Of a stretch of 40,927 nucleotides of DNA, positions 3,074-38,946 are shown piece by piece. Both the position numbers and the translations under genes were made by a program. Under the pieces are notes generated by a model that saw nothing but the letters and a program-made list of their open reading frames with translations, ran no database searches and was not told the origin of the DNA. The stretch covers positions 1-40,927 of IMG/VR virus record IMGVR_UViG_3300042519_003773; one strand, 5' to 3'. The stretch's first letter is position 1, and every line of letters begins with the position of its first letter. This DNA comes from a virus.

Positions 3074-3471
3074 ACTGCTTTATAGTGTTTTAATTTAGAC
3101 TCCACTGCTTCAGACAAAGTGAACCCATAACTACCTACTGAGTAGTTATCTCCCTTCATAAAGCCCCTATCGCTGACGAATACTTCAGCTTCAATAAATG
3201 GATCATCAGGGGATTCCTCTCTTTGATGAAGAGCTAAAACCCTATAAATATCTTCTGAATTGGTGAAAATATCGCCTATTGATATGTTGTGCATACTATT
3301 ATTATATTCTAGTTTATTGCTATTAGACCTGAGGTAATCGTATCCTTCTAATGCTTTTTCTGTAGTCTCTTTTGGTCTGTCAGCTATAAATTTAGCTGTA
3401 GCTCGCTTTACTTTATTACGTGGAGACGGTACAGCAATATTATATAGAGGATTAGATGGATCATACGACAT
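3070..3471 (-). CDS. Hypothetical protein
   Basis: 133 residues. Basic N-terminus, then a central IGDIFTNSEDIYRVL segment like a small SH3-like beta domain, and a short helix at the C-terminus. No family recognised. Overlaps the next gene by 4 nt. Confidence 0.7.
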   Translation of the reverse strand: MSYDPSNPLYNIAVPSPRNKVKRATAKFIADRPKETTEKALEGYDYLRSNSNKLEYNNSMHNISIGDIFTNSEDIYRVLALHQREESPDDPFIEAEVFVSDRGFMKGDNYSVGSYGFTLSEAVESKLKHYKAV

Positions 3472-3479
3472 ATTTTATA

Positions 3480-3743
3480 CTAGTGCAAGCGTTTTTTTAC
3501 TATTTCAATAAATTTGTCCCACCAATCTTTAGCTGGTGGATTCGGCTTTTCAAGGGCTAAAGGATTTACATGACATCTACCTAATAATATTAAATTCAGC
3601 ATAATTCCATGATATTTTGCTGGAACATCTGTAAAATCGAATCTTGCGCTTACTTTATACCCATAAGCTGTAACATAGTCTTTCATTTCTAATACTGGAG
3701 GGATATTAACGATAAAAGCAAAAGAAGAACCTTGGTGAATCAT
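3480..3743 (-). CDS. Hypothetical protein
   Basis: 87 residues, mixed beta and alpha pattern, C-terminal helix WWDKFIEIVKKRLH. Not recognised. It sits between 3754-3963 and 3070-3471 with gaps of about 10 nt, typical of the block. Confidence 0.65.
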   Translation of the reverse strand: MIHQGSSFAFIVNIPPVLEMKDYVTAYGYKVSARFDFTDVPAKYHGIMLNLILLGRCHVNPLALEKPNPPAKDWWDKFIEIVKKRLH

Positions 3744-8373: not shown

Positions 8374-8586
8374 TTATTCAGCTTTAGCAGCTAATTTGGC
8401 GGCTTTTCGCTCGTTTTTCTCGTCAGCAATTAATTTACGACAAATTTTTGCATTTGCAATAATTTCTTGCAATGCTTTTCGGGCCCGAGTACTAGCCGCT
8501 CCATTGCCAGATTCAAACTTTGCATATTCATTTAAAGCGATGACTAAATTTTCGTTAATTAGAATTAATGAAGTATTTGGATTCAT
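8374..8586 (-). CDS. Histone H1-like (Hc1-type) DNA-binding protein
   Basis: 70 residues. The segment GNGAASTRARKALQEIIANAK, followed by a Lys/Arg/Ala-rich helix (RKLIADEKNERKAAKLAAKAE), matches the pattern of bacterial Hc1-like proteins: G-N-x-A-A-x-T-R-x-R-K-A-L-x-E-I, then a basic tail. Such proteins bind DNA non-specifically and compact it. A TATAAATA octamer at 8605-8612 (minus strand), 19 nt before the ATG, resembles T4-type late promoters and could be read by the gp55-like sigma factor at 28680-29132, though such octamers are common by chance in AT-rich DNA. Confidence 0.6.
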   Translation of the reverse strand: MNPNTSLILINENLVIALNEYAKFESGNGAASTRARKALQEIIANAKICRKLIADEKNERKAAKLAAKAE

Positions 8587-8616: not shown

Positions 8617-8808
8617 CTAAATGCCATTCCGTTTCTTCAAATTTTCAGTATATCTATCTAAAATATCATTAAATTGAATACGAGCTATATTACGCTGCTC
8701 AGTAATTCTCTTTAATTCTTTATCAAGATGAGAAAGCAGCGTTTGTTTTTCGATATATTCGTAAATTAAAGCTTGATGTGTATCAATCCAAAATAAATCG
8801 TTATTCAT
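8617..8808 (-). CDS. Small coiled-coil protein
   Basis: 63 residues from ATG 8808 (MNNDLFWIDTHQAL). A long charged helix (LLSHLDKELKRITEQRNIAR) suggests a coiled coil. The frame is open to an ATG at 8862 that overlaps the neighbouring stop as ATGA, but a TTGACA-N16-TAATCA promoter ends 5 nt before 8808, which favours the shorter leaderless start. Function unknown. Confidence 0.7.
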   Translation of the reverse strand: MNNDLFWIDTHQALIYEYIEKQTLLSHLDKELKRITEQRNIARIQFNDILDRYTENLKKRNGI

Positions 8809-8813
8809 GTTAA

Positions 8814-8841
8814 TGATTACCACTGTATGAGATTTTGTCAA
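8814..8841 (-). promoter_or_regulatory. Promoter, TTGACA-N16-TAATCA, 5 nt before a start codon
   Basis: The -35 is at 8836-8841 and the -10 at 8814-8819. Predicted transcription start is at or next to the A of the 8808 ATG. It also decides the start codon of the coiled-coil gene. Confidence 0.55.
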
Positions 8842-8858
8842 GTTTTTTAAAAAAAACT

Positions 8859-9071
8859 TCATAATTGTCCATCTCCATTTCCATCTCCAAAACCTTCACC
8901 ATCTCCAAACCCTTCTCCTCTACCCCCTCCATTACCATCTCCCTCCGCTTCTCCATACCCTTCTCCGTCACCATTTCCATACCCATCCCCATCACCATTC
9001 GCCTCTCCATACCCATCGTCTAAATCTAAATAATAATTAAACAAATGATTTCCAATTAGTAATTTTTTCAT
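8859..9071 (-). CDS. Gly-X repeat protein 1 (outlier leader)
   Basis: 70 residues. Leader MKKLLIGNHLFNYYLDLDD, then GYGEANGDGDGYG and further Gly-X pairs dominated by Asp and Glu, ending GDGNGDGQL. Strongly acidic. The stop overlaps a downstream ATG as ATGA. It is the last array member in the direction of transcription. Function unknown; an alternating Gly strand with Asp/Glu on one face could bind metal ions. Confidence 0.75.
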   Translation of the reverse strand: MKKLLIGNHLFNYYLDLDDGYGEANGDGDGYGNGDGEGYGEAEGDGNGGGRGEGFGDGEGFGDGNGDGQL

Positions 9072-9080
9072 AAATCAAAT

Positions 9081-9473
9081 TTAAAGACCACACAAACTTT
9101 CAGTAATTTCTTTATTCTTCTTCATCGTAACCCCCTCCACAGCCATTGCCAGATCCAAACCCTTCTCCTCCCCCCCCTCATCATAACCATCCTCGCTCTC
9201 TTCGCCTCCTCCATCTCCTAAGCCATGACCCTCTCCATCCCCATCTCCCTCTCCATCCCCATCTCCAGATCCATATCCAAAGCCTTCTCCCGACTCGGGA
9301 GCATGACCAACGCCGTCTCCAGATCCAAATCCGTCTCCAGTGCCAGCACCATACGCAATCCCAACACCATACCCAGCTCCAGATCCGCTGCCAGATCCAC
9401 GACCGGAGCCTTTCGTGAACCTAGGAAAACCCGGCGACACGCACATTTGATGAATATTTACTGATTTTCCCAT
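9081..9473 (-). CDS. Gly-X repeat protein 2 (frameshifted tail)
   Basis: 130 residues as read. The leader MGKSVNIHQMCVSPGFPRF resembles neither main type. The tail GSGRGSGSGSGAGYG and following repeats run to about residue 100. After a run of eight G at 9170-9177 (minus strand) the frame leaves the Gly-X pattern and ends with AVEGVTMKKNKEITESLCGL. With one G fewer, the tail would continue GFGSGNGCGGGYDEEE and stop at 9112-9114. The start lies 16 nt inside the end of the previous gene. Either a sequencing error or length variation of the G tract. Confidence 0.7.
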   Translation of the reverse strand: MGKSVNIHQMCVSPGFPRFTKGSGRGSGSGSGAGYGVGIAYGAGTGDGFGSGDGVGHAPESGEGFGYGSGDGDGEGDGDGEGHGLGDGGGEESEDGYDEGGEEKGLDLAMAVEGVTMKKNKEITESLCGL

Positions 9474-9781
9474 GTTTTTACCCAGTTTCCTTTTCCAAAT
9501 CCACTTCCATCACCTGACCCATCACCATATCCAGATCCAACATTCACTGGGTATGACTCCCCTTCGTCATTATCATCGTTGCTTTCGTCGCCTCCTCCAT
9601 CTCCTATGCCGTGACCCTCTCCATCCCCATCTCCCTCTCCATCGCCATCCCCAGATCCATAGCCAAATCCTTCACCCCAGTTGCACCCATGACCATTGCT
9701 AAATCCATGCGGATTTTCATAAATAGGCACAGATTCATCTGCCATAAAATCTTTAAATCGGTTAATTAGTAAATTGTTCAT
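9458..9781 (-). CDS. Gly-X repeat protein 3 (type A leader)
   Basis: 107 residues from ATG 9781 (MNNLLINRFKDFMADESVP); an upstream in-frame ATG at 9799 is less likely because relatives begin at MNNLL. The tail holds GEGFGYGSGDGDGEGDGDG, an acidic GGGDESNDDNDEGE insert, then more Gly-Ser/Asp repeats and a non-repetitive end (GNWVKTWENQ). The DGDGEGDGDGE stretch places acidic side chains as in DxDxDG calcium loops, though no EF-hand is present. Confidence 0.75.
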   Translation of the reverse strand: MNNLLINRFKDFMADESVPIYENPHGFSNGHGCNWGEGFGYGSGDGDGEGDGDGEGHGIGDGGGDESNDDNDEGESYPVNVGSGYGDGSGDGSGFGKGNWVKTWENQ

Positions 9782-9801
9782 ACTTAAATTAAATTTCATT
9801 A

Positions 9802-10077
9802 TTAAAATATATCACAGTATCCCTCTCCAGTTCCAGCTCCATTAGCTGTACCTAAACCCCATCCTGATTCAAATCTACTTCCACAACCATCCCCCATCCC
9901 TTCACAGGAAACTTGTCCCCACTCGTCTGCATCTCCATCTCCATCTCCGTAACCGTAGCCGAACCCATCGCCGTTGCCATACCCACGACCAGAACATATA
10001 CCATCCTCAAACAGATAAGCGTGCAGAGAGTTACCTGCAATTAAGCCTTTAAAATCGTTAATCAGAGAAATTTTCAT
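9802..10077 (-). CDS. Gly-X repeat protein 4 (type A leader)
   Basis: 91 residues from ATG 10077 (MKISLINDFKGLIAGNS); an in-frame ATG at 10089 adds MYIF. Leader continues LHAYLFEDGIC, then RGYGNGDGFGYGYGDGDGD. Several cysteines (CSGRG, SCEGMGDGCGS) distinguish this tail, and the Gly spacing becomes less regular toward the end (GTGEGYCDIF). Confidence 0.75.
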   Translation of the reverse strand: MKISLINDFKGLIAGNSLHAYLFEDGICSGRGYGNGDGFGYGYGDGDGDADEWGQVSCEGMGDGCGSRFESGWGLGTANGAGTGEGYCDIF

Positions 10078-10089
10078 AAAAATATACAT

Positions 10090-10401
10090 TTAGAGCCAAA
10101 TCCATCCTCCAGACCCAGACCCTTCACCGCTACCTCCTCCAGTACCAGTCCCAAAGCCTTCACCAATATTATTGCCATTGCCGAGACCATTGCCTGATCC
10201 AAAACCATCGCCATCACCATCACCGTATCCACTGCAATCTCCGCCCGCTTCACCATCCCCATCACCGTCTCCTGATCCATAGCCATTCCCTCCACCATTT
10301 CCATGTCCTTCACTGTCCCCAATTTCTTCCCCATCCCCATAAATATCAAGAGATTCATCTACAATCAATCCTTTAAATTTGTTAATTAGTAAATTATTCA
10401 T
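10090..10401 (-). CDS. Gly-X repeat protein 5 (type A leader)
   Basis: 103 residues. Leader MNNLLINKFKGLIVDESLDI, then an acidic linker and Gly-X tail including GSGDGDGDGEAGGDCSGYG. It shares GFGSGNGLGNGN with the next gene upstream. The end is more hydrophobic (GSGGWIWL). Sits 3 nt downstream of gene 6. Confidence 0.75.
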   Translation of the reverse strand: MNNLLINKFKGLIVDESLDIYGDGEEIGDSEGHGNGGGNGYGSGDGDGDGEAGGDCSGYGDGDGDGFGSGNGLGNGNNIGEGFGTGTGGGSGEGSGSGGWIWL

Positions 10402-10404
10402 AAT

Positions 10405-10701
10405 TTAATTAATTACTACCCCATCTCCATCTCCATAACAAACTCCATTAATTACTACCCCGTCCCCATCCCCATCTCCATAACAATTTCCATTGCCATT
10501 ACCGAGACCATTTCCTGATCCAAATCCATCTCCATCATTGTAGCCATAACTATCCTCACTCTCTTCTCCAACACCATAACAGAAACCTAGACCGAGACCG
10601 AACCCACGCCCATTACTCATTACAATCGAATTTTTAAAAAGATAAGCAGAATCGCTATCAGCGATTAAACCTTTAAATTGATTAATTAGTAAAGTATTCA
10701 T
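10405..10701 (-). CDS. Gly-X repeat protein 6 (type A leader)
   Basis: 98 residues from ATG 10701 (MNTLLINQFKGLIADSDSAY); the frame is open upstream but only inside gene 7. The tail shares GFGSGNGLGNGN with gene 5 and ends with a short internal duplication: CYGDGDGDGVVIN then CYGDGDGVVIN. The matching DNA repeat (CCATTAATTACTACCCC) is visible near 10405-10460, a trace of recent slippage or recombination. Confidence 0.75.
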   Translation of the reverse strand: MNTLLINQFKGLIADSDSAYLFKNSIVMSNGRGFGLGLGFCYGVGEESEDSYGYNDGDGFGSGNGLGNGNGNCYGDGDGDGVVINGVCYGDGDGVVIN

Positions 10702-10951
10702 AAATTTCGAGTCCCATACCTCTACCATTACCAGATCCAAACCCAGCTCCATTACCAGATCCAAATCCATGACCTGATCCCGGTCCATACCCAGTTCCAT
10801 AACAATGTACTGATCGAGAGCCGTCTTCACCAAATCCTGATCCATTTCCAAACCCCTGACCATCTATAGACCCTGAACCGTGTCCATGTTCACATGGTTC
10901 AAGTACTGGAAGACTTGAAAATCTGTGGTGATTACATATAATATATTTCAT
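10682..10951 (-). CDS. Gly-X repeat protein 7 (outlier leader)
   Basis: 89 residues. Leader MKYIICNHHRFSSLPVLEPC is unrelated to types A and B apart from the hydrophobic start and a His pair. The tail (GHGSGSIDGQGFGNGSGFG and on) is richer in Ser, His and Asn than Asp. The last 12 residues (GLEIYEYFTN) are read through the start of gene 6, a 20-nt overlap. Confidence 0.7.
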   Translation of the reverse strand: MKYIICNHHRFSSLPVLEPCEHGHGSGSIDGQGFGNGSGFGEDGSRSVHCYGTGYGPGSGHGFGSGNGAGFGSGNGRGMGLEIYEYFTN

Positions 10952-10978
10952 AATTACTCTTAATTGTCCCCATTTTAT

Positions 10979-11212
10979 CTAGTTAATTGTATACCCAGTA
11001 CCGTCACCTGTACCATCACCTTTCCCCTTTCCTGATCCTTCATCATATCCAGATGAAAAACCAGAGCCATCACCAGACCCAGCTCCATCAATAAACCCAC
11101 AGCCAAACCCATAACCAAGCCCAGATCCATCACCTAAACCATAGCCAGACCCAGATCCATCTCTATAGATCAAATCAGCAGAATAACCATGATGTCTGTA
11201 AAGTAAATTCAT
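10979..11212 (-). CDS. Gly-X repeat protein 8 (type B leader)
   Basis: 77 residues. Leader MNLLYRHHGYSADLIYRDG, then GSGSGYGLGDGSGLGYGFG. Tail is Ser/Tyr/Phe-rich and less acidic than genes 1-3, with a Lys-bearing end (GSGKGKGDGTGDGTGYTIN). Confidence 0.75.
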   Translation of the reverse strand: MNLLYRHHGYSADLIYRDGSGSGYGLGDGSGLGYGFGCGFIDGAGSGDGSGFSSGYDEGSGKGKGDGTGDGTGYTIN

Positions 11213-11220
11213 ATTATCTA

Positions 11221-11472
11221 TTAAGACTCGTCTCCAGCTCCATCACCTAATCCATTGCAGTATCCTGATCCATCACCTAACCCATCTTCAAACATACTTT
11301 TAAGTCCAAATACACCATATCCACAACCAAACCCATAAATAGACCCATAACCACTACCGAATCCATATGCATCACCAGATCCGTCGCCAGTTCCATGACC
11401 AGATCCAGATCCAAATCCAGATCCACAAATCAAATCAGCACAATATCCGTTATGTATATAAAGTAAATTCAT
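11221..11472 (-). CDS. Gly-X repeat protein 9 (type B leader)
   Basis: 83 residues. Leader MNLLYIHNGYCADLICGSG; tail GFGSGSGHGTGDGSGDAYG and on, broken by a non-repetitive YGVFGLKSMFEDGLG patch near residue 52. Starts 8 nt downstream of an AAGTAAATTCAT block conserved ahead of all type B genes on the plus strand. Confidence 0.75.
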   Translation of the reverse strand: MNLLYIHNGYCADLICGSGFGSGSGHGTGDGSGDAYGFGSGYGSIYGFGCGYGVFGLKSMFEDGLGDGSGYCNGLGDGAGDES

Positions 11473-11515
11473 AAGTTAATCGCTGTTTCTAAAACCAAAT
11501 CCATTTCCTGTACCA

Positions 11516-11863
11516 TCACAAAAGCCAATACATGTGCTGAACTTGTCTGCTACCCCCATCTCCCTCGCCGTCCCCATCTCCAGCACCATCACCCTCACCA
11601 TGTCCATCTCCAGATCCCTCTCCATATCCATCTCCAGACCCAAAATTACAAGAAGATCCCCACCCGTCACCATAACCATCGCCTTCACCATAACCATCTC
11701 CAGACCCAGAGCCGCCGCCTGAACCATAACCAAATCCACATCCATCACCAAAGCCAGCCCCGAAGCCACATCCATCACCATCACCATATCCAGATCTGCC
11801 TCCATCACCAAATCCATGGATTACATTAGGAGAGTATCCTTGATGTGCGTAAAGTAAATTCAT
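11516..11863 (-). CDS. Gly-X repeat protein 10 (type B leader, frameshifted tail)
   Basis: 115 residues as read. Leader MNLLYAHQGYSPNVIHG, then the longest regular tail in the array (FGDGGRSGYGDGDGCGFGAG onward). At a five-G run (11553-11557) the frame leaves the pattern and ends SRQVQHMYWLL. With one G fewer the tail would read VADKFSTCIGFCDGTGNGFG and end at 11476. This is the second array gene whose tail end is switched by one base in a G run. Confidence 0.7.
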   Translation of the reverse strand: MNLLYAHQGYSPNVIHGFGDGGRSGYGDGDGCGFGAGFGDGCGFGYGSGGGSGSGDGYGEGDGYGDGWGSSCNFGSGDGYGEGSGDGHGEGDGAGDGDGEGDGGSRQVQHMYWLL

Positions 11864-11890
11864 AAAAATATCTATTAAAGGGCTTCCCCA

Positions 11891-12181
11891 TCACCAACCA
11901 AAGCTATAACCTCCTCCTTCACCAGACCCAGCTCCATCACCATCACCATATCCAGAACCCTCTCCAAATAGGCAACGTCTAGACGCATCAATCCCGAATT
12001 CATAACCATTCTCCTCTCCATCTCCTGATCCACTCCCATACCCTCTTGCATCACTATAGCCACTCTCATGACCTGATCCTGATCCTGTACCATGGCCGTA
12101 TTCAATGCCTGACGAGTCCCCATTTCCAGATCCACAGATCAAATCAGGAGAATAGGTAAGATGAATAGAAAGTAAATTCAT
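11891..12181 (-). CDS. Gly-X repeat protein 11 (type B leader)
   Basis: 96 residues from ATG 12181 (MNLLSIHLTYSPDLICGSG); upstream in-frame codons belong to the terminator and the previous gene. Tail NGDSSGIEYGHGTGSGSGH and on, with a Cys/Arg patch (DASRRCLFGEG). First array gene in transcription order. The U-tract of a strong terminator ends only 1-2 nt before its ATG, so there is no room for an ordinary promoter. Confidence 0.75.
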   Translation of the reverse strand: MNLLSIHLTYSPDLICGSGNGDSSGIEYGHGTGSGSGHESGYSDARGYGSGSGDGEENGYEFGIDASRRCLFGEGSGYGDGDGAGSGEGGGYSFGW

Positions 12182-12182
12182 A

Positions 12183-12219
12183 AAATAAAAAAAGCGGAGC
12201 AGGGATATTCCTGCCCCGC
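12183..12219 (-). terminator. Rho-independent terminator between the DUF6948-like gene and the Gly-X array
   Basis: Minus-strand stem GCGGGGCAGG.../...CCTGCTCCGC (12194-12219, one internal mismatch, six-base loop), followed by TTTTTTTATTT (12183-12193). A shorter T run on the other side makes it weakly bidirectional. It would stop transcripts from the tRNA/DUF6948 unit just before the array. Confidence 0.8.
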
Positions 12220-12233
12220 AATTTTTCGTATTA

Positions 12234-12599
12234 CTACTCGACGAACTTAATATAAGTAGCCTCTGCCTCAGGTGTAGTTGGGATGTATTCGATGGCATTA
12301 GTCAAGTAAACCTCGCCAGTTGCATTCAAACGGCCTCCTTTAATGCCGTCTTTAGCTACAGCAGATAGACTTAGACCGCCGCCTTCCCACTTCCACAGTC
12401 GCAAAGCATTTTTTAGCTTCACTTCCATTGAATTGGTTGGGTTCACATATTCCACATCACCGATATGGACACCAGCCGAGTATGTTCGGATGATACAGCG
12501 GCGGCCTAGCATTGGATGAGGAGGAGAAACAGAAGAGTTAAGCCCTGAAAACATAGAAGCTAACTGTTTGGCTTCGCCAATTGTCATATTGTCAATCAT
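12234..12599 (-). CDS. DUF6948-like phage protein
   Basis: 121 residues. LGRRCIIRTYSAGVHIGDV (about 31-49), then LKNALRLWKWEGGGLSLSAVA (about 62-82) and a C-terminal beta region ending TTPEAEATYIKFVE. The RxYSAGVHxG motif and the LxxAxRxWxWxGxxxLxxxA motif are those I associate with DUF6948, a small phage family without known function. Base composition is higher in G+C than neighbours. A terminator follows the stop by 15 nt. Confidence 0.7.
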   Translation of the reverse strand: MIDNMTIGEAKQLASMFSGLNSSVSPPHPMLGRRCIIRTYSAGVHIGDVEYVNPTNSMEVKLKNALRLWKWEGGGLSLSAVAKDGIKGGRLNATGEVYLTNAIEYIPTTPEAEATYIKFVE

Positions 12600-13684: not shown

Positions 13685-13875
13685 TTAAATTTGATTTCGT
13701 TTGGTAATGACATCTCCAAATATTCTAAGTACTCTGCATTATCCTCTTCTTTACTCTTATCGTCAAAGTCTATTTTTACTATTTTCAAAGGTTTTGAGCT
13801 TAAAATTCTAGAAATTTGATCGTTTTCAAAGATGAGAGCCACATTTATAGGCCGATTTGATTCATTGTAGTTCAT
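13681..13875 (-). CDS. Hypothetical protein
   Basis: 64 residues, acidic middle (DDKSKEEDNAEYLEYLE). Not recognised. Overlaps the phosphoesterase gene by 4 nt, so the two are probably co-translated. Confidence 0.65.
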   Translation of the reverse strand: MNYNESNRPINVALIFENDQISRILSSKPLKIVKIDFDDKSKEEDNAEYLEYLEMSLPNEIKFK

Positions 13876-13957
13876 TTTAATTCTGCTCCATTTATTTTTT
13901 TTATATTGTAATGGATATACTTATAAAAAGGCAGAATGTTATTAAAGATATTTTAGA

Positions 13958-14749
13958 TCAATAATTTTGAGTACTTTTATTGAAAAGCCAATTCAAATCA
14001 ATTTTGCTTCCATTTCTCTCCCACCAGCTTCGAACTATATCAGAGGAATCTTTTTGATGGTCTTTATTTTTAACTTCAATAAAATCTGGATAAAAAGAAG
14101 AATTTATATTGGTATTCTCAACAAATAAAGGAAAGGTATAAATATTTTCTTTATTGGAAGCATTATATATAACATTTTCCACATGAGGAATCACTTCTGG
14201 AAAAAATGGCAAATTTAAATCATAGCTATAATCTCCTCTAACATGAGAATCTATAATTATTTTAGCATATTCTCTTGAAATCAAATAACCACATGCAGAC
14301 CAATTGTCCCAAACGTATGGGTGAAGTTTTATATAGTTTTCTAGATTTTCATCTTTTATTTCCCGAATTAAAATTAATTGTATAGCAAACCAATTCTTAG
14401 GCAAATTTTGAATTACATAATTCCAGTTAAATGGCCAATATTCATTTAAATTTAAAGATAAATCATCTTCACAGAAAAATCCGTATTCATCATCAGAATT
14501 AAAAAACCAATCCTTGATAGCTTTCACATGGGATATACTTACCAAAAGCTCCCGAGAATTCATCAAGTGAAGCCATGGGCTACTTACTTCTATATTTTCT
14601 CCTAGCTCACTTTTTAAATCTTCAGGGCCATAAATAAAATTATACTTTAAATTATATTTTTCACATTGCTCCGCAAATAAAGAATGCCTTTCAGTTAGTT
14701 TTTTTACAGTTAAACAATTTATAGTAGGTAAATTAATTAAATTATTCAT
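13958..14749 (-). CDS. Glycosyltransferase family 25-like protein
   Basis: 263 residues. ERHSLFAEQCEKYNLKYNFI gives the usual start, SISHVKAIKDWFF (about 91-103) is the conserved helix, and GFFCEDDLSL (about 109-118) carries the acidic metal/donor-binding cluster. Later, LISREYAKIIID (about 176-187) fits the GT25 C-terminal part. GT25 enzymes add Gal or Glc to lipooligosaccharide or to hydroxylysine. It lies away from the main glycan cluster but may serve the same glycan. Acceptor unknown. Confidence 0.7.
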   Translation of the reverse strand: MNNLINLPTINCLTVKKLTERHSLFAEQCEKYNLKYNFIYGPEDLKSELGENIEVSSPWLHLMNSRELLVSISHVKAIKDWFFNSDDEYGFFCEDDLSLNLNEYWPFNWNYVIQNLPKNWFAIQLILIREIKDENLENYIKLHPYVWDNWSACGYLISREYAKIIIDSHVRGDYSYDLNLPFFPEVIPHVENVIYNASNKENIYTFPLFVENTNINSSFYPDFIEVKNKDHQKDSSDIVRSWWERNGSKIDLNWLFNKSTQNY

Positions 14750-34952: not shown

Positions 34953-36125
34953 TTATTCTATGTTTTTTAGTTCTGAGAGTTTTGTATAAGCTTTATGATT
35001 TTGGACTTCCATCTTATTTATCCAAAAAATATCATCGCCTTTTGTCCCCTTTATATACAATATATCTTCCTCTTTTGGCTCTTCATTATTTTCTAAATAT
35101 TGAGCTAATTTGTCACCTAACAACATTGCATATTTAGTTCCTGTTTCATCAAAGATTTTCATCTTTAGATACCTATTACCATTCTTACTTTTGCCTGAAA
35201 GAGTATCTTTTACAATACAAATAAGTTCAAAATTGCCTTTAACAGGAACATACTGATCTATCTCATCTATATTACGAATGTCAATATTAAAATCTCCAAA
35301 AACCATTTTCATGGTAGTAGAATAAGAAAATCCTAAAAGCATTCTTTCGTAGAAGAATGATGCCAAGAGTTCATTACGACTATTGAGATTATATATTTTG
35401 AAATATCCTACAGAATTTTTACGAATAGTTTCTAAACGAGACTCTTTAGTAAACTTTTTACCATTCGAATCTATCCAATTCAAATAATCTTTAAGCATTA
35501 TAATTAGATCAGAATTATATTTGCCTTCATTGTTTATACAAAATATCTTTTCTTTAGGAGTCAATAGGTTCCAGAGCTGAGCTTCCAAAACCTTCTTAGA
35601 TCTATCCTTAACTGTATGACCTAAGGCCCCACTCTGGATCAGAGAAGAGAGAATACCTATCCCAAGTTTAGCGTCTTTAGCAGAATTATACAATTTAAAA
35701 TCAGAATCTATATCAGAAGATATGAAACTCCTAAGCTTATCTATACTTTTATCTGATATACCTTTTATCTCTCCTAGTCCGAATCTAATATTCTTTCCTT
35801 CAATAGAAAAACCTAATCCGCTTTTAGCTATATTTGGGGGCATAAGTTCAATCCCAAAATGGGGCAACTCATGTTGGATAAGCTGAAACTGCTCTAAGAA
35901 ATCACCTCTAGTAGAAGCTATCTTAAGACAAGCAAGAAAGAACTGTTGTGGATATTTATGCTTTAGATAAACTGTTGAGGCTGCGATACTTGCATAACTA
36001 AAAGAATGGGAATTAGATACAACTATATCATCAGCATAAAAATTATGATTTTCACTATCCACCTCTAAATCTATAGAATCTTGTAATCCTATATGTTTTA
36101 TATATTTAATTTTATTTGCTGTCAT
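34953..36125 (-). CDS. dnaE: DNA polymerase III alpha, C-terminal fragment with IntC
   Basis: 390 residues. Residues 1-38 are a C-intein ending EVDSENHNFYADDIVVSN (block F SENHNFY, block G VVSN). The extein starts at Ser39 with SHSFSYASIAASTVYLKHKYP, matching the FNKSHSaAYA segment that follows the polymerase fingers. Next come finger/HhH parts (LGIGILSSLIQSGALG) and an OB-fold near 290-375 (FELICIVKDTLSGKSKNGNR). No tau-binding domain follows. Splicing would join it to the fragment at 37159-38946. Gene start overlaps the endonuclease stop as ATGA. Confidence 0.9.
   Translation of the reverse strand: MTANKIKYIKHIGLQDSIDLEVDSENHNFYADDIVVSNSHSFSYASIAASTVYLKHKYPQQFFLACLKIASTRGDFLEQFQLIQHELPHFGIELMPPNIAKSGLGFSIEGKNIRFGLGEIKGISDKSIDKLRSFISSDIDSDFKLYNSAKDAKLGIGILSSLIQSGALGHTVKDRSKKVLEAQLWNLLTPKEKIFCINNEGKYNSDLIIMLKDYLNWIDSNGKKFTKESRLETIRKNSVGYFKIYNLNSRNELLASFFYERMLLGFSYSTTMKMVFGDFNIDIRNIDEIDQYVPVKGNFELICIVKDTLSGKSKNGNRYLKMKIFDETGTKYAMLLGDKLAQYLENNEEPKEEDILYIKGTKGDDIFWINKMEVQNHKAYTKLSELKNIE
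36012..36125 (-). other. C-terminal split-intein domain (IntC)
   Basis: 38 codons. Conserved block F (SENHNFYADD) and terminal VVSN, followed by Ser+1 of the extein. Asn at the end is the cyclising residue. The penultimate position is Ser instead of the usual His. The length suits natural split inteins such as the gp41-1 class, which also use Ser+1. Confidence 0.85.
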
Positions 36126-37132
36126 TTTTTAATCTCTTTTATATAATTATCCCTTATTTCTTTTGCATCAGATTGAGAGTTAGCACATCCGATATATTTA
36201 CCCCTAAAATAACACACCCATCTATTAACACGTTTGCTGATATCCAAACAGACACCGATATAGTTAGATGTTTTTTTGATCGTTTTCAAATTGGCTTGTT
36301 GACTTTTAATGAATTTTCTTTCATATCCTATTTTATCATTTTCATAATTTTTATATATAAACTCAAAAAATTTTATACATCCATTTACATTTCCAATATT
36401 GACTGTGCTTCCTTTACCCAATTTACTTCGGGTCTTATAGATAGAACACCTTATGCCTAATTCTTCACAAAGAATTTCAAAAAATTTCCAGTCTTGATCA
36501 ATATTAGAAGATAATTGAATCTTAACAGATGGAGATTTTCCATTTTCATTCATTTTAAATACGAAACAACCGTCCCCATCGAAATACCCTCTCCACCAAT
36601 AATGCTTTAGATGATCAGGGATTAAATTTAAAATCTTAAATGGAGAACTCTTAGATTTTATTTCATAATCATTTTCTACCAAGAAATTTGAGATATATTT
36701 ATCGGATAAGTAAAACATAACGCAAGGTTTCCCACTAATAACTTGACCCTTATATACTCTTTGTAAAGCTTTTTTTTCATACGTTTTCCATTTAAAATCT
36801 CCCCATTTATCCAAAACTTTTTTTAAATAACTTGAATCAGACTTTGTGACTGTAACACTTATAAGATAAGACTTTTTAGAAGCTTTACTTACAGATCCAT
36901 CTGCCCACAAAAATCCTAATGTATAAACAATTTCAGGAGTCCATAAATTTATATAATCATTTATATCGCATTTATAATCTTTATTACTTTTTATTTTATT
37001 TTTTAATACGAATGATTCTATTTGAGATGTTGTTTTATTTAATTTTTTACGACAATAACCAACCCCAAAAATTGGAAAATATTTTTTTATAAACTCCCCT
37101 TCCTCATCATTAATTTTGTATTTATATGGCAT
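36122..37132 (-). CDS. Freestanding LAGLIDADG homing endonuclease with AP2-like domain
   Basis: 336 residues. The two LAGLIDADG helices are LGFLWADGS (near 73) and WWRGYFDGDGCF (near 177), a monomeric two-motif enzyme. The last 50 residues (SNYIGVCLDISKRVNRWVCY, then FRGKYIGCANSQSDAKEIRD) form an AP2/ERF-type DNA-binding domain. It lies between the two halves of the split polymerase gene, same strand, overlapping IntC by 4 nt. It probably cleaves an intein-less dnaE and spreads the split-intein arrangement. Confidence 0.85.
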   Translation of the reverse strand: MPYKYKINDEEGEFIKKYFPIFGVGYCRKKLNKTTSQIESFVLKNKIKSNKDYKCDINDYINLWTPEIVYTLGFLWADGSVSKASKKSYLISVTVTKSDSSYLKKVLDKWGDFKWKTYEKKALQRVYKGQVISGKPCVMFYLSDKYISNFLVENDYEIKSKSSPFKILNLIPDHLKHYWWRGYFDGDGCFVFKMNENGKSPSVKIQLSSNIDQDWKFFEILCEELGIRCSIYKTRSKLGKGSTVNIGNVNGCIKFFEFIYKNYENDKIGYERKFIKSQQANLKTIKKTSNYIGVCLDISKRVNRWVCYFRGKYIGCANSQSDAKEIRDNYIKEIKK

Positions 37133-37158
37133 ATATTATACATATACACTAAATATAG

Positions 37159-38946
37159 CTATTTAGATATAATCTTTATATCTTCTTTAATAATTTCCCT
37201 TAAACTTTTCATAGAAAAGTTTTCTGTTAAAAACTTATGATCTAGAGAACATTTAATTTTTTTTCCATCTTCAAGTTCTACCTCATACATTTCAACTTTA
37301 TTATGATATATATTAAGGACTTCAACTAAATGATCTTTTTTCTTATCTATATCAAAAGCTACAATAAAATCTCCTTTTTTTATATTTTTGATTTTTTCTT
37401 TTTTTCCGTTTTTTAAATCTACAAGAGAATCCAAAGATAAACATTTATTGAAACTGTAGTTAGCACTTTGCTCCAAAATTTCCCATAATAGATCTGGAAT
37501 CTGTTTATTCAATCCATTTTTCTCACAAGTTTCAAAGATAATATCTTTCCACTTAGCCATCTCTTTGATTTTCTTCTTACCAATGCACTTACGGATTACT
37601 TCTCCGTCAGCTTTCGTAAGACCAATTTTCTCACACATCTGCATGGTAGACTCTTGGTAAAGAGCCAAAGATGCAGTTGATTTCAAAAGCTCATCAAAGA
37701 ATGGGTGGATAGACTCATTCTTACCTTCATTAACGAACTGGGCATACCTATCAACGAACTGCAAAGCTCCGGGTCTAGCTAGAGCAGTAACTGCTGCTAG
37801 ATCATCCATATTTTTAGGCTTTACTTTATTGACTACTCCTAGATTACAGTCTCCACTAATTTGGAAAAGTCCATATGGATACTTGACATCTTGAAGATGA
37901 CTAAAGACATTTTCATAATTAATATCAAAATCTTCAGGTTTTAGATTTAGATTGGAACAAACCTCATTGATAATGCCGACAGCTTTTAATCCCAGCAAGT
38001 CAAGCTTAATATTATCAAGCTGAGCGTAATTCATATCGTAGCTTGTAACCATTTCATCTTCTCCCATTTCACATGGGATAGAATCAACAAGTTTATTATA
38101 AGACACAATATAAGCACTAGCGTGAGAACCTTTAGAACAGTTCAATTCTGAAAGTTTTAATGCTATTTTATATGCTTTAGGATTTTCTTTTACGAACTCC
38201 GCAAAAGACGGAACTTCTTTTACAGCATTTTTTAAGGAATGCACCTTCCCAAATAGAGAAGGAATTTGTGAAGAAATTTCGAGACTTTGTTGTTCTGAAT
38301 ATCCCAAAACAATTTTACAAACCTCTTTAATATTCTTTCTACTTTGCAATGTACTGTAAGTAGAAACTTTACAAAAATAGCCATCATATTTTTTCTTTAG
38401 AATTTCAATTAGTATTTCCCGTTTAGAGTCCTCAATATCAAGATCAATATCTGCGGCATCGGAATAATATTTAATACCGTCTACTATATTAGGTGTTGTT
38501 CTCGAAGGAGACAAAAACCTTTCAAAATATAGACCATTTTTTACAGGGTCAATATTAGTTACACCAAGACAATACAGAACTAAACTAGATGCCGCACTGC
38601 CTCTACCCGGCCCTACAGCAATACTATTCTTTTTAGCAATATTGACGACATCCCATACCATCAATAAATAATCTACGAAATCTGTGGGGCTAATAACACC
38701 CATCTCATAAGACAATCTATCTCTATAAGATTTCTCTTCTTTCGGGTCAATATCATTCTTTAATCTTTTTTCGAATCCCTTTTCAACTAGAATATTAAAA
38801 AGCTCTAAACTTGTCAAGTCAGAACCATTTAAGCTAAAAGGAAGATCTAGCGTAGCATGATCCTCTTTGCTTAAACAAAACTTTGGGAGCCTAATCCCAT
38901 GGATATTAAGATCTATTTTTTCGAATCTATCTAAAAAGGGTAACAT
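37159..38946 (-). CDS. dnaE: DNA polymerase III alpha, palm/fingers fragment with IntN
   Basis: 595 residues. Residues 1-501 are alpha-subunit core without the PHP domain: GPGRGSAASS (112-121), the palm aspartates in ADIDLD (D166, D168), HASAYI and KLDLLGL (D316 as third aspartate), all present. ALARPGAL near 390 and KADGEVIRKCIGKK near 450 complete the thumb/finger region. At FNK501 the intein begins with Cys502: CLSLDSLVDL (block A), ELEDGKKIKCSLDHKFLT (block B with the key His). The gene stops 94 residues into the intein. The start at 38946 follows the exonuclease gene by 3 nt. Confidence 0.9.
   Translation of the reverse strand: MLPFLDRFEKIDLNIHGIRLPKFCLSKEDHATLDLPFSLNGSDLTSLELFNILVEKGFEKRLKNDIDPKEEKSYRDRLSYEMGVISPTDFVDYLLMVWDVVNIAKKNSIAVGPGRGSAASSLVLYCLGVTNIDPVKNGLYFERFLSPSRTTPNIVDGIKYYSDAADIDLDIEDSKREILIEILKKKYDGYFCKVSTYSTLQSRKNIKEVCKIVLGYSEQQSLEISSQIPSLFGKVHSLKNAVKEVPSFAEFVKENPKAYKIALKLSELNCSKGSHASAYIVSYNKLVDSIPCEMGEDEMVTSYDMNYAQLDNIKLDLLGLKAVGIINEVCSNLNLKPEDFDINYENVFSHLQDVKYPYGLFQISGDCNLGVVNKVKPKNMDDLAAVTALARPGALQFVDRYAQFVNEGKNESIHPFFDELLKSTASLALYQESTMQMCEKIGLTKADGEVIRKCIGKKKIKEMAKWKDIIFETCEKNGLNKQIPDLLWEILEQSANYSFNKCLSLDSLVDLKNGKKEKIKNIKKGDFIVAFDIDKKKDHLVEVLNIYHNKVEMYEVELEDGKKIKCSLDHKFLTENFSMKSLREIIKEDIKIISK
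37162..37443 (-). other. N-terminal split-intein domain (IntN)
   Basis: 94 codons from Cys1 (CLSLDS) with block A and block B (KKIKCSLDHKF) and a terminal IKEDIKIISK. No endonuclease domain is present in-frame. The insertion point after FNK is four residues downstream of the classical cyanobacterial DnaE split-intein site, which lies before CFNKSHS. Confidence 0.85.

Follow-up and report, generated by a model that had tools for sequence, protein, structure and literature searches.

Eleven tandem glycine-repeat genes in a phage sequence and their pairing with DUF6948

Introduction

Positions 8859 to 12181 of the virus sequence IMGVR_UViG_3300042519_003773 (IMG/VR; positions 1 to 40927, the whole stretch of 40927 nt analysed, referred to here as the window) contain eleven adjoining open reading frames (ORFs) on the minus strand, running from 12181 to 8859, in which glycine alternates with other residues (Gly-X). 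The locus raises the question of whether such an array is protein-coding and, if so, to which family it belongs and what its products might do. A first-pass annotation, made from the letters of the window, had not included the gene directly upstream, which encodes a DUF6948 protein and places the Gly-X family. The comparisons described here indicate that DUF6948 and Gly-X genes make up a conserved, apparently undescribed, two-gene phage module, and that the window array is a derived local tandem expansion of it.

Pairing of Gly-X genes with DUF6948

The gene upstream of the array (12234–12599) passes the curated cut-off of PF22253, scoring 70.6 bits against 27. Relatives were drawn from IMG/VR, GTDB genomes and annotated phages, giving 194 distinct DUF6948 genes, and the 172 with at least 150 nt of downstream sequence were used to count pairs, a Gly-X ORF being counted where six or more GX were found directly downstream on the same strand. 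A Gly-X ORF was located directly 3' of DUF6948 in 167 of these 172 loci, and upstream instead in two. Three loci were scored as having none; in two of them (L222 and L290) a Gly-X stretch is present but short or degenerate, which leaves L296 as the one locus without any. Elsewhere in the 749 kb of sequence from the same loci just 25 Gly-X ORFs were present, array members included.

In a reverse test, the viral collection was searched with a degenerate Gly-X DNA pattern, and DUF6948 was found directly upstream in 59 of the 66 loci with enough upstream sequence. One further locus (L363) carries a natural fusion, in which one ORF encodes a DUF6948 domain and, after it, a Gly-X tail, and in four others (L338, L344, L369 and L372) the Gly-X gene is preceded by a small protein of the kind IRRWGTTKGLGELA. 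By sequence comparison, proteins of this kind form a divergent DUF6948 branch: PF22253 is matched slightly under its cut-off by two of the four, a weak match to PF22253 was obtained for 24 of 52 members of the branch, and comparison of its profile with that of DUF6948 gave an E value of 4.8e-6 and a probability of 86%. A Gly-X gene lies downstream in 55 of 63 loci of this branch, and a second natural fusion seems to be present in L491. Apart from L363 and L491 no fused forms were found, and in nearly all loci, the window among them, DUF6948 and Gly-X are encoded by separate genes.

Most relatives have a single Gly-X gene, and arrays of eight or more were seen only in the window and in contigs L009 and L010. 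Smaller, independent Gly-X expansions lie 3' of DUF6948 in L017 (four genes) and in L049, L050 and L056 (two or three). The Gly-X genes multiply while DUF6948 remains single-copy.

Translational coupling

An ATG in the Gly-X frame was found at −35 to +12 nt relative to the DUF6948 stop in 152 of 179 loci, often overlapping that stop. As an ATG occurs by chance in ~47% of control windows, this overlap is a weak argument, and the case for coupling is carried by the few fixed offsets at which the ATGs lie (−17, −13 and −23) and by Shine-Dalgarno (SD)-like motifs, 114 of which were found upstream of the coupled starts versus 34 at control positions. In the −23 group, the ATG is created by the TAT-GTN codons of a TYVKF motif. 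The same site reads TAT-ATT (TYIKF) in the window and L009, and TAT-CTT in L010, indicating that the coupled start has been lost in these three. The window array starts 52 nt past the DUF6948 stop, behind a hairpin (Table 1). The corresponding region of L009 (coordinates 10367–10510, compared with 12190–12234 in the window) is longer, ends likewise in CCCTGCTC...TTTTTT, and looks like a tRNA-like or tRNA-derived sequence.

Taken together, the constant pairing, the coupled translation and the fusions strongly suggest that the Gly-X peptide works together with DUF6948, and a functional pairing is considered very probable.

Coding capacity and structure of the array

The eleven Gly-X genes are, with near certainty, real coding genes. 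Gly codon frequencies in the array are very close to those elsewhere in the phage (GGA 0.42 and 0.42, GGT 0.28 and 0.29, GGC 0.12 and 0.15, GGG 0.18 and 0.15, respectively), and the Asp, Tyr, Asn, Phe and His codons likewise match the phage's own usage. Stop codons across the array number 11 in the Gly frame, all of them natural gene ends and none internal, and 33 and 107 in the other frames. Orthologues of array genes were identified in the related contigs L009 (121.6 kb) and L010, where other array genes have been gained, lost or recombined; dN/dS for the orthologues ranges from 0.13 to 0.80, and substitutions by codon position total 32/31/71 over five orthologue pairs. An SD-like motif precedes only 2 of 35 ordinary genes of the window phage, and the sequence upstream of the array genes is AT-rich, the same as for these ordinary genes.

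The possibility raised in the first-pass annotation that the array is junk repeat DNA can be set aside, as frames are intact in the relatives and synonymous change exceeds non-synonymous change; it is ruled out by codon usage, dN/dS, a composition of X independent of GC content and the fact that only the Gly frame is open. Selection for G-quadruplexes was similarly ruled out, GGG not being enriched. A broader alternative is that the locus is a DNA or RNA element (a hexamer repeat, G-quadruplex or RNA sponge) with the peptide incidental. This would fit the hexamer periodicity GGNNNN and length changes that are mostly of two-residue steps between near-identical phages, but is very improbable given Gly third bases at genome usage, proportions of Ser, Tyr and Asp that are equal at low and high GC, dN/dS below 1, coupled starts with SD-like motifs, and the protein fusions.

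The eleven adjacent Gly-alternating genes described in the first-pass annotation were recovered as ORFs and by a shuffle test, which gave an alternation of 246 in the array versus a mean of 71 and a maximum of 96 in 1000 residue shuffles. The two leader types it had assigned to the array hold for eight of the eleven genes (Table 1): MNLL(Y/S)xHxxYSxDLI in the four ORFs ending at 11891, 11516, 11221 and 10979, and MNxLLINxFKGLIADES in those ending at 10405, 10090, 9802 and 9458. The other three depart from them, with MKYIICNHHRF in the ORF ending at 10682, MKKLLIGNHLF in that ending at 8859 and a leader that is not clearly assignable in that ending at 9081. The mosaic structure it had reported is also borne out: a 137-nt DNA block at 9173–9309 shares 84% identity with 9559–9695, repeat families D7 and D8 correspond to the leaders at the DNA level, and GFGSGNGLGNGN is present in two genes. 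Its description of an unrecognised coding family likewise agrees with the gene gain and loss, mosaicism and intact frames seen in L009 and L010.

The start of an 81-aa ORF with no convincing family match (window coordinates 8617–8862) overlaps the stop of Gly-X gene 11 in the sequence ATGA, and this ORF may be translationally coupled to the array.

Table 1. Features of the DUF6948 and Gly-X locus in the window
Feature	Coordinates	Strand	Details
DUF6948 gene, first of module	12234..12599	-	121 aa; PF22253 E 1.3e-19; predicted Sm/LSm-like fold
Terminator-like hairpin	12194..12219	-	Strong, with T-run; between DUF6948 and array
Gly-X gene 1	11891..12181	-	Leader MNLLSIHLTYSPDLI; orthologue in L009
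Gly-X gene 2	11516..11863	-	Leader MNLLYAHQGYSPNVI
Gly-X gene 3	11221..11472	-	Leader MNLLYIHNGYCADLI
Gly-X gene 4	10979..11212	-	Leader MNLLYRHHGYSADLI; orthologues 88-90% identical in L009 and L010; dN/dS 0.23-0.51
Gly-X gene 5	10682..10951	-	Leader MKYIICNHHRFSS, third type; L010 orthologue 80% identical; dN/dS 0.80
Gly-X gene 6	10405..10701	-	Leader MNTLLINQFKGLIADS
Gly-X gene 7	10090..10401	-	Leader MNNLLINKFKGLIVDES; disordered in AlphaFold (AF2) model
Gly-X gene 8	9802..10077	-	Leader MKISLINDFKGLIAGNS
Gly-X gene 9	9458..9781	-	Leader MNNLLINRFKDFMADES; alternative in-frame ATG at 9799 possible
Gly-X gene 10	9081..9473	-	Start MGKSVNIHQ..., leader not clearly assignable; 137-nt block (84%) in common with gene 9
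Gly-X gene 11	8859..9071	-	Leader MKKLLIGNHLF; L010 orthologue 91% identical; dN/dS 0.13

Distribution and genetic context

The two genes form a near-invariant pair over hundreds of phage contigs, including a prophage of Neisseria gonorrhoeae and phages of Pectobacterium, Vibrio, Iodobacter and green sulfur bacteria. Annotated carriers are Pectobacterium phages Taid and Sabo, Iodobacter phage phiPLPE, Vibrio phage IKEMa6-1 and Chlorobiaceae phage CV-1-33. In a search of bacteria, DUF6948 was found in one of 297 genomes of one phylum, that one being the seed genome, suggesting that it is essentially phage-borne in that phylum.

The recognisable neighbours of the module are mainly early or recombination genes (RecT, Sak4, exonuclease VIII, SSB, HNH, NinG and RusA), with Erf as a neighbour in the Pectobacterium phages; terminase and tail-fibre genes account for a few. 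The module of the window sits within a tRNA cluster.

Literature searches found no mention of DUF6948, nothing on phage Gly-dipeptide proteins, no gonococcal prophage repeats of the Gly-X kind, and nothing relevant on phage-encoded Hfq-like proteins. The pair is apparently undescribed partly because the Gly-X gene is unannotated, called hypothetical or placed in the wrong frame. Of the public records for CV-1-33 (L063, coordinates 3286–3531) and phiPLPE (L061, coordinates 1140–1400), one gives the Gly-X gene in the wrong frame (MAMAMALA...) and the other does not annotate it.

Elsewhere in the window, a DnaE-type DNA polymerase (coordinates 34953–38946) is encoded by two ORFs around a 336-aa homing-endonuclease-like ORF (36122–37132) with intein-like ends, and this insert is probably an intein. 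A small protein encoded at 8377–8586 matches histone H1-like Hc1 (PF07432, E 4.6e-10).

Properties of the Gly-X peptide

Across 175 loci of 30 to 70% GC, the commonest residues at X are Ser (0.36), Tyr (0.26) and Asp (0.23). This composition is nearly identical in loci under and over 45% GC, whereas synonymous third bases follow genome GC. In the divergent branch, the corresponding values are Tyr 0.42, Asp 0.28 and Ser 0.14. In the window array a wider mixture is found (Asp 61, Ser 45, Tyr 24, Phe 23, Glu 18 and Asn 15 of 247).

The length of the Gly-X peptide differs, mostly by two-residue steps, among phages and prophages with identical or nearly identical DUF6948, and Gly-X ORFs of 89 to 108 residues are found in gonococcal-type prophages (L196–L215 and L065). 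This in-frame polymorphism, which is fast, could be used as a strain marker.

The AF2 model of the product of Gly-X gene 7 has very low confidence (pLDDT 39), and the peptide is predicted to be disordered. Searches of the Gly-X genes against Pfam, NCBIfam and PHROGs returned only chance matches of low complexity, and no structural PHROG family was matched. A scan of the Gly-X proteins detected no RTX or collagen Pfam family at E 0.1, only low-complexity matches to TrAA12 under the cut-off, and the period is two residues, not the GGxGxDxUx nonapeptide or the GXY triplet. Hence the suggestion in the first-pass annotation that DGDG runs bind calcium finds no support in family matches to RTX or collagen.

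The alternation of Gly with Ser, Tyr and Asp resembles silk-like strands on sequence grounds, in keeping with a structural peptide, silk-like or adhesive, that would belong to the virion or to an extracellular matrix. This alternative is distinctly unlikely, as inspection of the leaders revealed no evident secretion signal, the module lies mostly among early and recombination genes, and the AF2 model is one of disorder, not of a confident sheet. The silk or matrix strands proposed earlier are accordingly left without support, as are a reservoir of displayed peptides and a recombination-driven diversifier, given that Gly-X genes are mostly present in one copy, tied to DUF6948 and in an early or recombination context.

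Predicted fold of DUF6948

An AlphaFold model of DUF6948 built with 96 relatives has a pLDDT of 93.5, and consists of five strands flanked by an N-terminal and a C-terminal helix, with a further helix inserted between the third and fourth strands. With Foldseek, every one of the best 50 PDB matches is a chain of Sm, LSm or SmAP type, the lowest E value being 1.6e-3; the LSm-like subunit of NatC is among them. The archaeal SmAP 1i8f aligns with the model with a target TM of 0.79 and an rmsd of 1.6 (E 3e-3). Among 24,736 Pfam models, matches under the threshold were obtained to SM-ATX (4 of 96 members, best E 0.0043), LSM and LSM14. On the strength of the model, DUF6948 is likely to have an Sm/LSm-like fold.

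Possible role of the module

The best overall explanation, given about an even chance, is that the array is the tandem-expanded tail gene of a module made up of an Sm-like core and a separately encoded Gly-X tail. The first gene encodes DUF6948, a small barrel of predicted Sm/LSm-like fold. The product of the second is a short peptide, predicted to be disordered, in which a variable leader precedes a (Gly-X)n tail with X mostly Ser, Tyr or Asp, and its translation is normally coupled to the DUF6948 stop. By analogy with the Gly-rich repeats of Acinetobacter Hfq, the peptide may serve the Sm-like core as a detached tail of low complexity or as a binding partner. Tyr-Gly-Ser sequences are generally known to drive assembly in low-complexity proteins, and the tail might tune the nucleic-acid binding or self-assembly of the core, with Tyr as 'stickers' and Gly and Ser as spacers. 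The module probably acts early in infection. In the window lineage, the coupled start has been lost and the tail gene has multiplied to eleven diverged variants, each with its own leader.

An assembly linked to RNA or DNA is put forward tentatively, and is somewhat unlikely. The fuller proposal, that a two-component system of Sm-like ring and detached Tyr/Gly tail is widespread in phages and forms ribonucleoprotein condensates in infected bacteria, with the window lineage holding a library of eleven interchangeable tails, is doubtful. If DUF6948 is indeed an Sm protein with a detachable low-complexity tail, the module would offer a minimal natural setting in which to study how RNA-binding rings are tuned by Gly-Tyr-Ser sequences, and phages would have a further, unsuspected means of controlling RNA or recombination.

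Several observations weigh against the core and tail explanation. Comparison of DUF6948 with 18 Hfq (PF17209) sequences using hhalign gave a probability of 0.4%, a sequence search of the PDB found no match for DUF6948, and the conserved residues RTYSAGV and RRxWxW depart from the canonical Sm RNA-binding pattern. The acidic Gly-X tails do not make nucleic-acid binding obvious, most DUF6948 and Gly-X pairs are separate proteins, and in the window the hairpin separates DUF6948 from the array. Finally, L054 (coordinates 8877–9597 and 13861–14560; also L053) carries three near-identical Gly-X copies that share the C-terminal extension TYAPPTEMECTTPYMTDKTEWLRLREKLIEATT and are coupled to three different small genes, DUF6948 being only one. 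The coupling to two unrelated small genes shows that the Gly-X peptide can move to other partners, and the gene may move as a cassette.

For the divergent branch, hhalign against Hfq gave a probability of 0.1% and the best E value in the PDB sequence search was 0.97. Homology of DUF6948 to Hfq was rejected as the profile comparisons were negative, for the divergent branch too. With weak sequence support and no profile link to Hfq, DUF6948 is therefore called Sm-like by predicted fold, not a member of the Hfq family.

The movement of Gly-X copies to other genes in L054 also bears on an alternative in which the Gly-X peptide is an effector that coats, gels or inhibits a target in the host cell, DUF6948 is its carrier, chaperone or antidote, and the array is a set of diversified effectors. 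The multiplication of Gly-X genes beside a single DUF6948 and the differences in leader and tail between array members are in its favour, but the composition of X is constant over phages of very different hosts, unlike that of a target-specific effector, and Gly-X/DUF6948 fusions exist. This reading is considered unlikely.

Comparison with known systems

The window gene is a clear member of DUF6948 (PF22253), a family without assigned function, and its relatives have the same Gly-X partner, which is missing from the description of the family.

The small Sm-like bacterial protein Rof (YaeO), a homologue of Hfq, has a protein target and inhibits Rho (PMC11018626). DUF6948 might similarly be an Sm protein of the Rof kind, its ligand being a host protein such as Rho instead of RNA, with Gly-X as a solubility or assembly partner of the inhibitor, since it is without the usual Sm RNA-binding signature and its conserved patch could be a protein-binding site. 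However, Rof is not among the 50 fold matches listed for DUF6948, which are ring-forming Sm/LSm types, and no Rof relative with a Gly-X partner was seen; this reading has only a small chance of being correct. Rof is not known to have a Gly-rich partner.

Sm/LSm proteins with low-complexity partners or tails include Scd6/LSM14 and ataxin-2, which DUF6948 resembles in its predicted five-strand Sm barrel; its Pfam matches to SM-ATX, LSM and LSM14 are weak and under the threshold. It differs from them in being phage-borne, in the helix between strands 3 and 4, in apparently having no canonical Sm motifs, and in the separate Gly-X gene.

The Hfq of Acinetobacter baumannii has Gly-rich C-terminal repeats, the number of which alters RNA binding and fitness (PMC11617691). 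The likeness lies in the combination of an Sm-type core with a repetitive, Gly-rich, disordered tail. DUF6948 has no sequence link to Hfq, and whereas the GGFGGQ repeats and acidic tip of Acinetobacter Hfq belong to the same polypeptide as the core, the (GX)n tail is here encoded by a separate, coupled gene.

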